Positions 58,494 through 64,000 of a stretch of 64,000 nucleotides of DNA are shown here, one piece after another. Both the position numbers and the translations under genes were made by a program. The stretch is from Bacteroidota bacterium (GTDB lineage: Bacteria > Bacteroidota > Bacteroidia > AKYH767-A > 2013-40CM-41-45). The stretch's first letter is position 1; each line of letters starts with the position of its first letter. The stretch lies in assembly GCA_003389385.1 (NCBI GenBank), contig QQVM01000012.1, forward strand, positions 62,001-126,000, given 5' to 3'. The notes beneath the pieces were generated by a model. It had not been told where the DNA came from, ran no database searches, and saw nothing but the letters and a program-made list of their open reading frames with translations.

Positions 58494-59147
58494 TCAACAA
58501 ATTTTATGGATGAAGATTTTATAATTCATGTTTCCGAAATGATAATCAAAAGTATTGGAATTCAGCTCAAAACCAGCATTTACAAGGGCTTCAGGAAAAT
58601 CCCGGGCCATTGCACGGTTCGGCTCGGCTAGAAGAATCTTAGCTTCTGGCTTTAATAATACTTTAAATGTCTGAATCAAATTTTGGTATGACTTCCGTTC
58701 ATATGCCACATCAGAAGCAAGAATCAGGTCGAATTTCAAATGTTCTGGCGGAACCCTCCAGTCTACATGTAAGAATTTTGCAGACCTTGAGTTGTTAAGA
58801 TACCAGTTATTCTCTGCCACTTCAAGAGCTGCTTGTTCATAGTCGGAAAAAGTCAGGTCAGCACCGATGCTGCCTGCAACAATACCTGGCAATCCAAGCC
58901 CACATCCAATCTCCAAGACTCGCATTCCACTCATGTCTGAGTAATTGTCCAGTATAAATTCAGACAAGACAATTGAAGACGGCCATAAATCAGCCCAATA
59001 AGGAATCCTCTCATCAATGAAATCCGGATGCGACTCACCTTTTTCTACAAGGCGATTGAAAAGAACATCTACATCTTTTACTATAAACATAGAATAGAAC
59101 TTATCCCTAACAGTGATATTCTGTTTTTGAAAAAGCTTTTGATCCAA
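58494..59147 (-). CDS. SAM-dependent methyltransferase (METTL21/Nnt1-like)
   Basis: 217 residues from a TTG start four bases after the upstream stop; the next in-frame ATG would cut 19 residues. VLEIGCGLGLPG (about 75-86) is the SAM-binding motif I, followed by DLTFSDYE, DLILASDVAYERKSY (the DxxY segment), and KILLAEPNRAMA. The seven-beta-strand class with the IPYWADLWPSSIVLSEF opening is the PF10294 family (protein-lysine or nicotinamide N-methyltransferase-like). The substrate is not known; the family in bacteria is likely to act on ribosomal or translation proteins. It is co-transcribed with the FG-GAP gene. Confidence 0.85.
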   Translation of the reverse strand: MDQKLFQKQNITVRDKFYSMFIVKDVDVLFNRLVEKGESHPDFIDERIPYWADLWPSSIVLSEFILDNYSDMSGMRVLEIGCGLGLPGIVAGSIGADLTFSDYEQAALEVAENNWYLNNSRSAKFLHVDWRVPPEHLKFDLILASDVAYERKSYQNLIQTFKVLLKPEAKILLAEPNRAMARDFPEALVNAGFELNSNTFDYHFGNMNYKIFIHKIC

Positions 59148-59151
59148 AATA

Positions 59152-61398
59152 TTAATTGTATTTGATCAGTCGATGCACTTCCCTACCGTACTTATTATTT
59201 ATTTCTAGCATGTACACTCCGGGCATTACTCTTCCCAACTCAATTTTTTCTTCGGATGCCGAAATCATTTTTTCTATCAGAAGAATTCCTTTCATATCTG
59301 ATAAACGCATCGAATGTTTGTCATTCTCCGCTTGGCCAAGGCTTTTAACCATAACATACTCTGCAACAGGATTAGGATAGACTACAAATTTTTTATTCCT
59401 GCCCAACTCTTTAATTCCTGTCGGCGGAGAACCTTTGATGTGGATTTGAATCCCCCCGCCATAAAGCCCGAATAACAAATCAGTTTTTAAATCTCCGTTA
59501 ATATCACCTCCGGACACTGATATATTCTGCCTTGTCCGGACACCAAGAGACCTTTTGATTAGAGTGTCTTCAACAGTAAAAAATCCGTTTATATTACCGT
59601 CTATATTACCGAACAGTACCACGTCACCTGCCATGTTTGCTACTGCAATTCGCGTTTGCGCACTATCCCTGAAAGCAAATGGCACAGAGAATCCATCAAC
59701 AAAACCCGGAGTTTGGGTAACAATTCCACCCAGAGTATCGATAGTAGGTTGAGAAGAAAAAACAGGTGAGGACAAGGTTCCGGTATTTTCAAAATAATTA
59801 ATGAAACCATTTTTCTCTCCAATAAGTAAATCCGGCAGACCGTCTTGATTAAGATCGAAAAACTGTGGAGCGCTCGAAGATCCCACATCGATAGATGAAT
59901 AATTCGATCCGGTAAATACAAAGTTGCATGGAGCTGAAGGTCCGGCGGTGTTAGTGAAATGATATAAAGTTCCGTCTTCTGCTCCTAAAAGCATATCCTG
60001 ATCTCCGTCACCGTCGAGGTCAGCAAATGCCGGAAACAAAGGGCCACTGATGTTAAGAGAAGAAACTCCTGCATAATCTTCAGTAATAATTTCAAAAGAC
60101 GGAGATGAGTGACTACCTATATTTCGCAAGAGCGTCAAGCTCTTTCTCATCACACCGCCAGGCAATGTGGCGAAAACATTTCCAATCAAAATATCCGGCA
60201 GACCGTCTGAATTCTCATCAAAAAAAACAGGTGCGGCACCTTCTCCGACATCAATCATCTCAGACACCAAAAAATCATCGGTTTGAAAGGAGAAAACGGG
60301 TAGCTGAGTGCTTCCGGCATTACGATAGTACAATACTCCTCTCTTGTTTTCATTTTCATTATGTCCTACAAGCAAATCTTTCACGCCGTCGAAATCCACA
60401 TCCTGATAAGCATGTGTGACAAAGGAACGCACATTAACAGGTGTTGTGTTCGATGGGAACAAAGTATCCTGAGACACCATGTCAGCGAGTTGAGGAGTTC
60501 CACCATTGATAACAAGCAAACTGTTGATTGCCTGGCTGTCGCCGATGAGAGCATCTTTATCTCCGTCTCCGTCAATGTCAATGGTAAAGATACCTGCAAA
60601 GGTGTCATCCCTTTGCGCGATTTGGTATGAATTCATTTCAGCTTCCATATTGCTGAGACAGTTAATATGAAATTGCCCGACTGCAACATGCTGAAATGCT
60701 CCGCTTCTGAGAGAAAATTTTCCCCACGAATAAGTCTCGAGAACATATTTACTCAAAGAATCACAAACACCATAATTTTCCATCGACATATTTTTATAGT
60801 ATGCGAAGGTACCAACGCAAAAAAACTGCTGACCTAACACATCCATGTCACCATCTCCGTCTACATCATTTAAATGAGGCATGAGAAAAGCGCTGGCAAA
60901 TATGCTTGAAAAATTTCCGCCACCGTAATCTGCTTTCATCACTGAATCCACGGCTGTAAACAACAAAGATCCGGGCTGAGAGTCATTACGAAATTGCAGG
61001 ATGCCGTTGTTATTCACTGAAGTAGTGAACAGATCCGCTTTACCGTCGCAATTGTAATCATAAAGAAGCGCCCAACCTCGCAGTTCAGGCAACTGAGCGG
61101 CATATTCAGGGGCATAGCGAAATGAATTCGGACCCGGACCGGTACGAATGAAAGTCATCGCCCTGTCATTGCTTCTGTCAAAAACAAACAAGTCTTCCAT
61201 TCCATCACCGTCAAGATCGACGGAGGAAAATACCGGAAAGTTGATTCCGCCTGCCCAGGGATGCTTAAGCTGAACACCCGAATTGAAAACAGTAAAGTTA
61301 TTCTCAAAATACCACTGAGTGCGAGCTGTGATTGAAAAGACGAGAATAAGTAAGAATACAGTTGATACGATTAGATAATGCGGAGATTTAAATTTCAT
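59152..61398 (-). CDS. Secreted FG-GAP/VCBS repeat protein with T9SS type A domain
   Basis: 748 residues. Signal peptide (1-27), then about eight VCBS/FG-GAP calcium-binding repeats with DxDGDGxxD motifs (for example DLDGDGMEDL, DVDGDGDMDV, DIDGDGDKDA, DLDGDGDQDM, DLNQDGLPDL), which fold as an integrin-alpha-like propeller. The last ~75 residues (VYPNPVAEYVM ... HRLIKYN) are a type A sorting domain. Such proteins are surface adhesins or cargo; no enzyme is evident. A methyltransferase gene follows directly, four bases after the stop. Confidence 0.9.
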   Translation of the reverse strand: MKFKSPHYLIVSTVFLLILVFSITARTQWYFENNFTVFNSGVQLKHPWAGGINFPVFSSVDLDGDGMEDLFVFDRSNDRAMTFIRTGPGPNSFRYAPEYAAQLPELRGWALLYDYNCDGKADLFTTSVNNNGILQFRNDSQPGSLLFTAVDSVMKADYGGGNFSSIFASAFLMPHLNDVDGDGDMDVLGQQFFCVGTFAYYKNMSMENYGVCDSLSKYVLETYSWGKFSLRSGAFQHVAVGQFHINCLSNMEAEMNSYQIAQRDDTFAGIFTIDIDGDGDKDALIGDSQAINSLLVINGGTPQLADMVSQDTLFPSNTTPVNVRSFVTHAYQDVDFDGVKDLLVGHNENENKRGVLYYRNAGSTQLPVFSFQTDDFLVSEMIDVGEGAAPVFFDENSDGLPDILIGNVFATLPGGVMRKSLTLLRNIGSHSSPSFEIITEDYAGVSSLNISGPLFPAFADLDGDGDQDMLLGAEDGTLYHFTNTAGPSAPCNFVFTGSNYSSIDVGSSSAPQFFDLNQDGLPDLLIGEKNGFINYFENTGTLSSPVFSSQPTIDTLGGIVTQTPGFVDGFSVPFAFRDSAQTRIAVANMAGDVVLFGNIDGNINGFFTVEDTLIKRSLGVRTRQNISVSGGDINGDLKTDLLFGLYGGGIQIHIKGSPPTGIKELGRNKKFVVYPNPVAEYVMVKSLGQAENDKHSMRLSDMKGILLIEKMISASEEKIELGRVMPGVYMLEINNKYGREVHRLIKYN

Positions 61399-61602: not shown

Positions 61603-64000
61603 TCAGCTTTGTTTTCGATTTATAAAAAACAGAATCATAATTATGCTAATCAGAGCAAGCAGCCACTTCTGATCTCCCTGAAAATGGCTTGCAGAAACTG
61701 TGGACTCAACTGCATCTTTATTTGTTGCGACAAGATTCAAATCAGGGTTCGAATCGGTTGGCAATACAGATGCAGCATTAAGCTGTTTTTTACCGACAGC
61801 ATCAATTATCTGTGTAATTTTTTGATTGACAATAGAAGTATCAAGCATGGCAGTTTTATCAATCCGATCTTTTCTATTTACAGGCATCTCATCAATTATT
61901 CCATAAGGCAATTGAAGATAATCGCGGTTCCTATCAATATCCCAGCCCGTTAGAAATGAAAGTTCCTGAAGCTCCTTGTATCTTCTTTGCCGCAGTTCTT
62001 TCAAATAGCGTTTCCCTTCTGCACAATCAAAGGGGCCCGGGGCTGGATGATTCATGACATATCGAAGTTGGAAGTTGTCTTTGTTGGGAGTTTCCTGGAA
62101 AATCAAATCCTGAGGGAAATTCTTCCTGTCATAACGAACATGAAGCCTGGTAATAAACAATTCACCTTCATAAGCACTGCCATTTCTTCCTGGAATTATC
62201 CAGTCAGCACCGGCCATTTTAATGTCGGCATACACAGGAGGATTACCTGCACAGGGATCACACTTCACAAAGTTTCTTCCTGAAATGTCCCATGAATATT
62301 CCAGGTAAACATTATTCTTTCCTTCCCTTTCAAAGGTTCTGTCAAAAACTGCTTTATAAAAGCCGCTGAAATCACTGGCGATAAACTCAGGGATGTTTCT
62401 GTCTGTCGGAACTTTTACTGTCCTGTAGTTTACAGTTTCTACCCTTCCCTTTGAAGAAAGGGCATACACAATCATTTCCTGGCTTCCACTTGCATTGGCC
62501 ATTCCAAGTCGAATAGGCAACATGAAGCGAGGAGAACTGAAAGATATTTGCAATGGACGTAAACTCCCCCTGCCTTCTGAGTTAAACTTTTCAAGATTAA
62601 TCTTCACAACAAAAAACTTAAGATTATTCTTTACATAAGGTTCAAGCACCTCCTTTGCTTTCTCAGGGATTTTATATCCATGATCAGTCAGCCATCTTTC
62701 CAGTCCGGAACTTTCTTCGGCGGATAAAATAAGAATGTCATATTCACCAACAGCATACTTTGCTTCGATTTTCACTTTATATGAATTCTCTTGTTTTATT
62801 TCAGAGGTTGTTGTACGTGACTCTGATTTAAACATTGTTGGAAGAGCGTCTTCCTGAATTTCCAACCTGTCCCAACACGGATTTTGATCCCAATATTCAA
62901 CCAGTCGAGGACCAGAATAAGCATCAAATGAATCGAACAACTTCTTCTCTACTATTTTTATGTCTGATTTTTTCAGCACAACTGGAACAGGCACTACCAT
63001 TGCGAAATGATTAGGCTCACCTGAATAATCGCTGCTCATTGTCACAACAGTTTTTTCTCCATCGCGTACGAGAATCACTTGTGATGCTTTATTGAACAGG
63101 GATGCGTCTGCTTTTGCTACATAAAATCCGCAAAATGCTTCAGATCGGGCAGGCAACATTAGAAAAGCTGTCAGCAAAATGAATGAGGGAACAATAAGTT
63201 TAAGAAATGCAGGAGTCTTAACCTTTGGCTTTAACAAACTCATTGCATGAAATGAATTCCATCTGAAAGGTTTTCCTGAAAATAGCTTATCAAGTAATGG
63301 AGTGAACAATGACAAGATAAACAAAGCATAAAGTGGTGCGCCATTAACCCAAAATTTAAATTGAAGAATGGCTGCGAACACTCCGGTTGTTGCAGCCCAC
63401 ACGATCCTGACAAACTTGTTAGACGGTGAACTGACAGGATCGGTGATCATGAAAAAAGTGAACAGCAAAAGAGTTCCGCTGCTGAACTGCTGAAAGAAAA
63501 AGTCGAGTGGCCAGCCTTGATAAATTATGGAACGAAAAAACATAACAGCTGAGAATGATAGCAGGAAAGCCATCGCTGTATCTACTCTTTTGACGTTTGC
63601 AAGGACAACAAATCCCAAAGTTCCGACAATGAAAATCCACATTCCATGACTTCCCCATTGTCCGGGCGATATCCAGGCATCACCGCTGAGCAGTACAGTG
63701 AGCACAATGCCGAAATTGGTCGGATTAAAAATGTGTTTTCCATTAATACGAAAAGCGAATTTACTTCCAATACTCAGAACAGAAGCCAATACAGCTGTTA
63801 GAGCGAAATTGCTCTTCATCATAAGGCAAATGCTCAAAGCTGAAATGAGCGCACTTTTAACTGATGAGTAATCTTTGTTGCTTAAAAGAGAAAGTAAAAG
63901 TTGTGTGCCAATGCATGCAAAAAAAGTGGCAGTAAAATTTAATGAATATTCAAACCAACCCAATCTGAAAAGTCCAAAAATTAAAAAGGACGACAGAAAA
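61603..64000 (-). CDS. RnfD-like membrane domain fused to DUF2330 (5' end beyond the window)
   Basis: The frame is open to the right edge; an internal TTG at 63963 is unlikely to be the real start because the extra residues continue as a hydrophobic helix. About 799 residues are visible. The first ~250 are membrane helices of the NqrB/RnfD type (GKHIFNPTNFGIVL, DAWISPGQWGS, FMITDPVSSPSNK). A hydrophobic segment at about 255-285 ends in ARSEAFCGFYVAKADASLFN, the start of a DUF2330 domain (to about 500: VRDGEKTVVTM, FAMVVPVPVVL, PRLVEYWDQNPC). A tail with one terminal helix (WLLALISIIMILFF) follows. RnfD normally carries covalent FMN; the flavin threonine motif is degenerate here. No other rnf gene is in the window. 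Confidence 0.85.
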   Translation of the reverse strand, partial: FLSSFLIFGLFRLGWFEYSLNFTATFFACIGTQLLLSLLSNKDYSSVKSALISALSICLMMKSNFALTAVLASVLSIGSKFAFRINGKHIFNPTNFGIVLTVLLSGDAWISPGQWGSHGMWIFIVGTLGFVVLANVKRVDTAMAFLLSFSAVMFFRSIIYQGWPLDFFFQQFSSGTLLLFTFFMITDPVSSPSNKFVRIVWAATTGVFAAILQFKFWVNGAPLYALFILSLFTPLLDKLFSGKPFRWNSFHAMSLLKPKVKTPAFLKLIVPSFILLTAFLMLPARSEAFCGFYVAKADASLFNKASQVILVRDGEKTVVTMSSDYSGEPNHFAMVVPVPVVLKKSDIKIVEKKLFDSFDAYSGPRLVEYWDQNPCWDRLEIQEDALPTMFKSESRTTTSEIKQENSYKVKIEAKYAVGEYDILILSAEESSGLERWLTDHGYKIPEKAKEVLEPYVKNNLKFFVVKINLEKFNSEGRGSLRPLQISFSSPRFMLPIRLGMANASGSQEMIVYALSSKGRVETVNYRTVKVPTDRNIPEFIASDFSGFYKAVFDRTFEREGKNNVYLEYSWDISGRNFVKCDPCAGNPPVYADIKMAGADWIIPGRNGSAYEGELFITRLHVRYDRKNFPQDLIFQETPNKDNFQLRYVMNHPAPGPFDCAEGKRYLKELRQRRYKELQELSFLTGWDIDRNRDYLQLPYGIIDEMPVNRKDRIDKTAMLDTSIVNQKITQIIDAVGKKQLNAASVLPTDSNPDLNLVATNKDAVESTVSASHFQGDQKWLLALISIIMILFFINRKQS

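Follow-up and report, generated by a model that had tools for sequence, protein, structure and literature searches.

The window analysed here is a stretch of 64,000 nt from a Bacteroidota genome of 24 contigs (contig positions 62001-126000). At its far end, the ORF list and the translation give an uninterrupted minus-strand ORF (61603-63999), open to the window edge, which encodes an RnfD-like membrane domain followed by a DUF2330 domain. In the host genome the fused gene continues past the window end. The likely start is the ATG of MENAIQ (L002:7114), 113 bases beyond window base 64000, resulting in a protein of 836 aa; an alternative GTG start further upstream would give 884 aa, and the ATG was judged likelier because the N-terminal lengths of relatives fit. 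The genes past the window end encode large secreted-type proteins.

A single uninterrupted frame with both domains had been proposed from the DNA letters alone (the original prediction), and this was borne out by the genome ORF and by Pfam searches. The motifs quoted at that time (NPTNFGIVL, ITDPVSSP, CGFYVAKADASLFN, RDGEKTVVTM and PRLVEYWDQNPC) were all found. The profile search that had been suggested recovered NQR2_RnfD_RnfE in the N-terminal half (PF03116; 1.9e-13, 50.9 bits, cut-off 27.7), the point on which the original prediction had staked its reading of this half, and DUF2330 in the rest of the protein (PF10092; 1.4e-69, 234.8 bits, cut-off 24.7). The latter match covers profile positions 3-278 of 279, in agreement with the complete DUF2330 domain that had been predicted. 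Besides these two families no credible match was obtained in the Pfam search of the fusion, including none to a C-terminal NAD-binding domain (PF00175), and the NCBIfam/TIGR rnfD model scored 31.6 bits, far under its cut-off of 207.05. The features of the gene are listed in Table 1.

Table 1. Features of the fused RnfD-like/DUF2330 gene within the window.
Feature	Position	Strand	Basis or remark
Fused RnfD-like/DUF2330 gene, in-window part	61603..64000	-	5' end outside window
Short RnfD-type membrane domain of about 10 TM helices (TM I truncated at the window edge)	63250..63999	-	Pfam PF03116 stretch 63265-63654; AF2; PDB matches
NPTNFG motif	63709..63726	-	Asn (63724-63726) corresponds to RnfD Asn124 of the riboflavin pocket (PMC9588780)
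QWGS motif just before TM VI	63649..63660	-	The 50-residue FMN linker would precede; absent
ITDPVSSP motif	63424..63447	-	Asp (63439-63441) corresponds to RnfD Asp248 (PMC9588780)
Internal hydrophobic segment, former signal peptide of DUF2330 gene	63136..63210	-	Ends ARSEA before FCGFYV; A-x-A type cleavage site retained
DUF2330 domain, complete by Pfam	62098..63144	-	Pfam; AF2 core pLDDT >90
KCDPC (CxxC) of DUF2330	62251..62265	-	With Cys 63130-63132, 62875-62877 and 62023-62025, the five invariant cysteines
C-terminal transmembrane helix of DUF2330 part, then basic tail	61624..61665	-	Translation, AF2

Directly downstream on the same strand, window positions 59152-61398 encode a secreted FG-GAP/VCBS-like protein whose C-terminus is Por-secretion-like. 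This neighbour is not kept beside the pair elsewhere and is probably a coincidence. Immediately downstream of it, again on the same strand, a class I methyltransferase-like protein of 217 aa is encoded (58494-59147).

The membrane domain

For sequence comparisons the RnfD-type and DUF2330 domains were aligned apart. The AF2 model of the membrane domain has pLDDT values mostly above 90, and its best solved matches in Foldseek were RnfD (8rbq_D; E 1e-6, TM 0.65 by target) and NqrB, with RnfD/NqrB matches at E 1e-6 to 4e-4; urea transporters came next in the list and were not significant. The RnfD/NqrB-type fold that had been recognised in the original prediction was thereby confirmed. As we read the DSSP string, the helices come in the order of the published RnfD elements (PMC9588780): I-V, VI-VII, a short helix, VIII, IX, X.

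RnfD holds riboflavin in a pocket with Asn124 and Asp248 and carries covalent FMN on the Thr153 linker (PMC9588780). The equivalents of Asn124, Asp248 and Gly237 are invariant in all 80 short RnfD sequences, and the pocket residues N, P, D and G are likewise kept in 80/80 across deep divergence. Between helices V and VI, however, there are about 13 residues instead of the roughly 50-residue FMN linker of RnfD, and the spacing from the NP-Asn to the TDP-Asp has a median of 95 residues in the DUF2330-linked and ASPIC-linked clades versus 135-145 in canonical RnfD, the odd minima and maxima looking like wrong motif matches. Words of the type [ST]GA[ST] occur in 3 of the 80 sequences, as chance occurrences outside any linker. 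At the position of the FMN-contacting Arg130 the residue is Ile or Leu (Ile in 69 of 77 scored sequences, Arg in none), and in the profile alignment the Asn90 equivalent is Leu, Met or Ile and the Glu185 equivalent mostly Ser or Asn. Since the linker, Arg130, Asn90 and Glu185 are gone while Asn, Asp and Gly are invariant, the periplasmic flavin site is lost and the pocket on the cytoplasmic side kept. The window protein therefore resembles canonical RnfD/NqrB in fold, helix order and the Asn124/Asp248/Gly237 equivalents, and differs from it in having neither the FMN linker with its Thr, nor the equivalents of Arg130, Asn90 and Glu185, nor the complex partners.

The own genome contains a single PF03116 protein; neither ApbE (flavin transferase) nor any other Rnf/Nqr subunit was found in it, including PF02508. 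Among 12 carrier genomes ApbE was not found in 7 and RnfA/RnfE-type subunits (PF02508) were not found in 10. The annotation 'RnfABCDGE subunit D' is thus misleading for the linkerless proteins, which are without the FMN site and, mostly, without the pump.

The DUF2330 part and the junction

Five cysteines of DUF2330, those of KCDPC among them, are invariant in 75/75 sequences. A Foldseek search with the DUF2330 model gave no significant relative in the PDB (best E 0.1), the insignificant matches being M1 aminopeptidases, inter-alpha-inhibitor and oligosaccharyltransferase subunits, and a literature search found no paper on DUF2330. Standalone copies possess a signal peptide ending right before FCGFYV and a membrane helix at the C-terminus. 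The internal helix of the fusion, which had been described as a likely signal anchor, derives from the signal peptide of the once separate DUF2330 gene. Because standalone relatives carry an N-terminal signal peptide and the C-terminus of RnfD is cytoplasmic (PMC9588780), the DUF2330 part should face the periplasm, judging from these sequence features, as originally proposed. In the AF2 model of the fusion, the way the domains lie relative to each other is predicted with low confidence (pTM 0.47).

Every fused junction retains a signal-like segment ending in Ala (-1) before FCGF. In most of these junctions position -3 is a small residue, and a Met close to the original start is mostly retained as well. 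As a signal-peptidase site is thus retained, the fusion protein may be split again into its two halves. Signal peptidase would then cleave between ARSEA and FCGF, and the fusion would add nothing except equal production of both parts. This explanation, which concerns the fusion only and is compatible with each of the functional readings below, has a reasonable chance of being correct, somewhat short of even: the conserved features of the junctions favour it, but the putative site is internal, located after ten helices, and the junction in genome G001, where position -3 is Met, makes a weaker site.

Fused and separate genes

The same fusion (826 aa) is present in another genome of the genus (record L018 is the same tree tip), five fused genes were counted among 80 named Bacteroidota loci that had been found via the RnfD-like part, and two further fusions came from other genomes of the class. 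A chance or frameshift fusion was rejected on the basis of this recurrence in the genus and in several lineages. The original prediction would have been wrong if the homologues were always separate genes and the window carried a frameshift; instead, fusions recur. On the maximum-likelihood tree the fused or separate state changed six times, a number in which gains and losses are counted together and which depends partly on weakly supported forks.

In nearly all unfused Bacteroidota loci the DUF2330 gene lies directly downstream of the short RnfD-like gene on the same strand. The exceptions among the 80 loci are three without DUF2330, though the locus continues, and three that stop near a contig edge. 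When loci from relatives were included, 63 of 76 unfused pairs overlapped or were at most 50 nt apart (17 overlapping, 46 within 50 nt). The window gene is therefore a true fusion, derived from a conserved operon of two genes. A survey of how often the two families are adjacent or fused had been suggested with the original prediction, and its outcome is that they are adjacent in nearly every Bacteroidota locus examined and are fused in several lineages. Within 6 kb of the 80 loci no other conserved gene was found, none being common to more than 8 of the 80; membership in a larger electron-transport operon was rejected for this reason.

Co-occurrence of short RnfD and DUF2330

Presence and absence of the two families match across genomes. 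In a sample of the order, DUF2330 occurred in 7 of 42 genomes and short RnfD in the same 7; in a phylum-wide sample, with short RnfD counted above 200 bits, DUF2330 occurred in 4 of 395 genomes and short RnfD in the same 4. The chance of an exact match would be 4e-8 (order) and 1e-9 (phylum) if genomes were independent, and these values are an indication of strength only because genomes are not independent. Short RnfD was present in all 12 DUF2330 genomes checked. One of these (G042) carries four tandem DUF2330 genes (L151, G042:C70, 5637-11706) and has its only short RnfD on another contig (C13); as the two are on different contigs there, the link between RnfD and DUF2330 is more than map linkage. 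The original prediction had assumed that the two parts work together, and adjacency together with the presence/absence match supports such a functional coupling: the RnfD-like and DUF2330 parts appear to act as a pair.

Outside Bacteroidota the pairing may not hold. On a plasmid of Deinococcus sp. QL22 a DUF2330 gene is broken in pieces with all five cysteine positions kept (L155 8001-9161), and no short RnfD was found within 8 kb of it in the 17 kb stretch examined.

Relatives with other extracytoplasmic partners

In the clade that is sister to that of the window's membrane domain (hhalign E 5e-35 between the two), Bacteroidota short RnfD proteins are likewise encoded next to a partner in all loci resolved. 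In contrast to the DUF2330 pairs, the partner gene lies directly upstream and encodes an FG-GAP/UnbV_ASPIC protein, from another Pfam family, with few or no cysteines. Since these partners are almost cysteine-free, thiol chemistry is not family-wide.

Relatives outside Bacteroidota were taken from plasmid records. On Metabacillus plasmid pB218 the end of the gene for a membrane-anchored AhpC/TSA redoxin with CQAC (L156 6318-7705) overlaps a linkerless RnfD gene at its start, which gives the same arrangement in two parts, here with an evident redox partner. The Mesorhizobium protein (L157) is also linkerless and aligns with the short RnfD clade; it carries a fused NAD-binding domain and is encoded beside FMN-binding and ApbE genes. 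It belongs to the Nqr/Rnf-like type, which has been described as one in which an RnfD-like subunit without flavinylation site is in direct contact with an extracytosolic partner in the model (PMC8238504, PMC10979944) and keeps an apparent non-covalent flavin site (PMC10979944). Such two-subunit systems are like the window protein in combining an RnfD/NqrB-type subunit devoid of the flavinylation site with one extracytosolic partner. They are unlike it in their fused NAD-binding domain, FMN-binding partner and ApbE, none of which the window protein has, its partner being DUF2330.

Proposed role of the pair

It is well established by the above comparisons that the RnfD-type and DUF2330 parts constitute a two-part membrane module independent of Rnf/Nqr. 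A physical complex of both is probable: short RnfD and DUF2330 would form one inner-membrane complex in which DUF2330 would lie on top of the RnfD-type domain, on its extracytoplasmic side, at the place of the former FMN linker. A redox step is possible by analogy, given the invariant cysteines of DUF2330, the Metabacillus redoxin and the Mesorhizobium FMN-binding partner. Least certain are two further steps: the retained Asn/Asp pocket of the membrane part might bind flavin or quinone non-covalently, and the membrane pool might exchange electrons with the invariant DUF2330 cysteines (KCDPC). The module would then work like the two-subunit Nqr/Rnf-like systems, with a thiol-type partner replacing the FMN protein, and the fused chain, if cleaved after insertion, would yield the same two proteins. 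Two relatives with redox partners, together with the Nqr/Rnf-like precedent, favour this reading. It is weakened by the cysteine-poor partners of the sister clade, by the absence of any observed cofactor, by a membrane part in which neither an invariant cysteine nor a recognisable electron-input module was found, by the lack of a confident structural relative of DUF2330 among redox folds, by the low-confidence domain arrangement in the fusion model and by the Deinococcus DUF2330 gene without a short RnfD nearby. Taken as a whole, including redox transfer and possible cleavage, it comes close to an even chance, on the lower side; electron transfer to the cysteines is in itself uncertain.

Alternatively, short RnfD could move a small solute or ion, with DUF2330 as a periplasmic binding or gating partner and no redox chemistry. 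The RnfD fold resembles urea/ammonium transporters (PMC9588780), urea transporters were among the insignificant Foldseek matches, covalent FMN and redox partners are lost, and the type of partner differs between clades. Transport nevertheless seems unlikely: the residues of the extracellular Na+ site proposed for RnfD (Asn90, Glu185) are replaced, so that the Na+ route proposed for Rnf is not kept, and two related systems have redox partners. No better a chance is given to a non-catalytic platform, in which short RnfD would anchor or assemble varied secreted domains (DUF2330, ASPIC/FG-GAP, redoxin) and its pocket would be structural; a single membrane family with interchangeable extracytoplasmic partners from unrelated sequence families agrees with it, but the strict conservation of N, P, D and G exceeds the needs of an anchor and DUF2330 has its own C-terminal membrane helix. 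The original assignment as a flavin-bearing Rnf/Nqr-type subunit, with covalent FMN and with DUF2330 as its redox partner, is highly improbable despite the RnfD family match and fold, and a covalent flavoprotein was rejected, given the absent linker with its TGAT site, the loss of Arg130 and the missing ApbE and Rnf/Nqr partners in the own genome and in most of the carrier genomes counted above.

Linkerless RnfD-type proteins in other contexts

DUF2330, a family without assigned function, gains a first testable role through its constant membrane partner in Bacteroidota. As the pair is connected with other linkerless RnfD-type proteins, among them a pair conserved in enediyne antibiotic clusters, a bench result on one pair would inform the others. 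On plasmids of S. globisporus C-1027 and Serratia, a linkerless RnfD has a CRTAC1/VCBS-ASPIC protein encoded next to it; in C-1027 the enediyne PKS adjoins the pair. The enediyne PKS cassette consists of E10/E/E5/E4/E3 (PMC5181780), and from gene order the RnfD-type and CRTAC1 pair is taken to be E4/E5. The literature search found nothing on RnfD together with ASPIC, on RnfABCDGE together with CRTAC1, on RnfD-like/NqrB-like or on UnbU/UnbV. With the window pair the C-1027 pair (CRTAC1/UnbV_ASPIC and 'RnfD') has in common that a linkerless RnfD adjoins an extracytoplasmic-type partner, and its motifs H-x-x-NPSNFG and TDPGTSP resemble those of the window protein; it differs in the partner, FG-GAP/ASPIC instead of DUF2330, and in its position beside a type I PKS and DUF1702 proteins.

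Our tentative suggestion, less likely than not to be correct, is that linkerless RnfD-type proteins, the unexplained enediyne membrane/CRTAC1 pair included, form a broad class of membrane modules that stand alone and combine with exchangeable extracytoplasmic partners (DUF2330, ASPIC/FG-GAP, redoxin, FMN-binding), a class that either arose from the Rnf/Nqr pump subunit or gave rise to it. If true, one mechanism would explain all linkerless RnfD pairs.

Two observations were made on the ASPIC-linked loci of Bacteroidota. In one of them (L146, G161:C1:4004000-4016000) an FG-GAP/ASPIC protein, a short RnfD and a type I PKS of 1817 aa (KS-AT-PP-KR-DH) follow each other in the order of the C-1027 cassette, and the locus is possibly an enediyne-like or related polyketide cluster. 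Moreover, many pairs of ASPIC and short RnfD (L133-L145) are located near SusC/SusD-like genes (clusters cl2 and cl3) and large TPR/FG-GAP proteins, which suggests a conserved surface-uptake locus.
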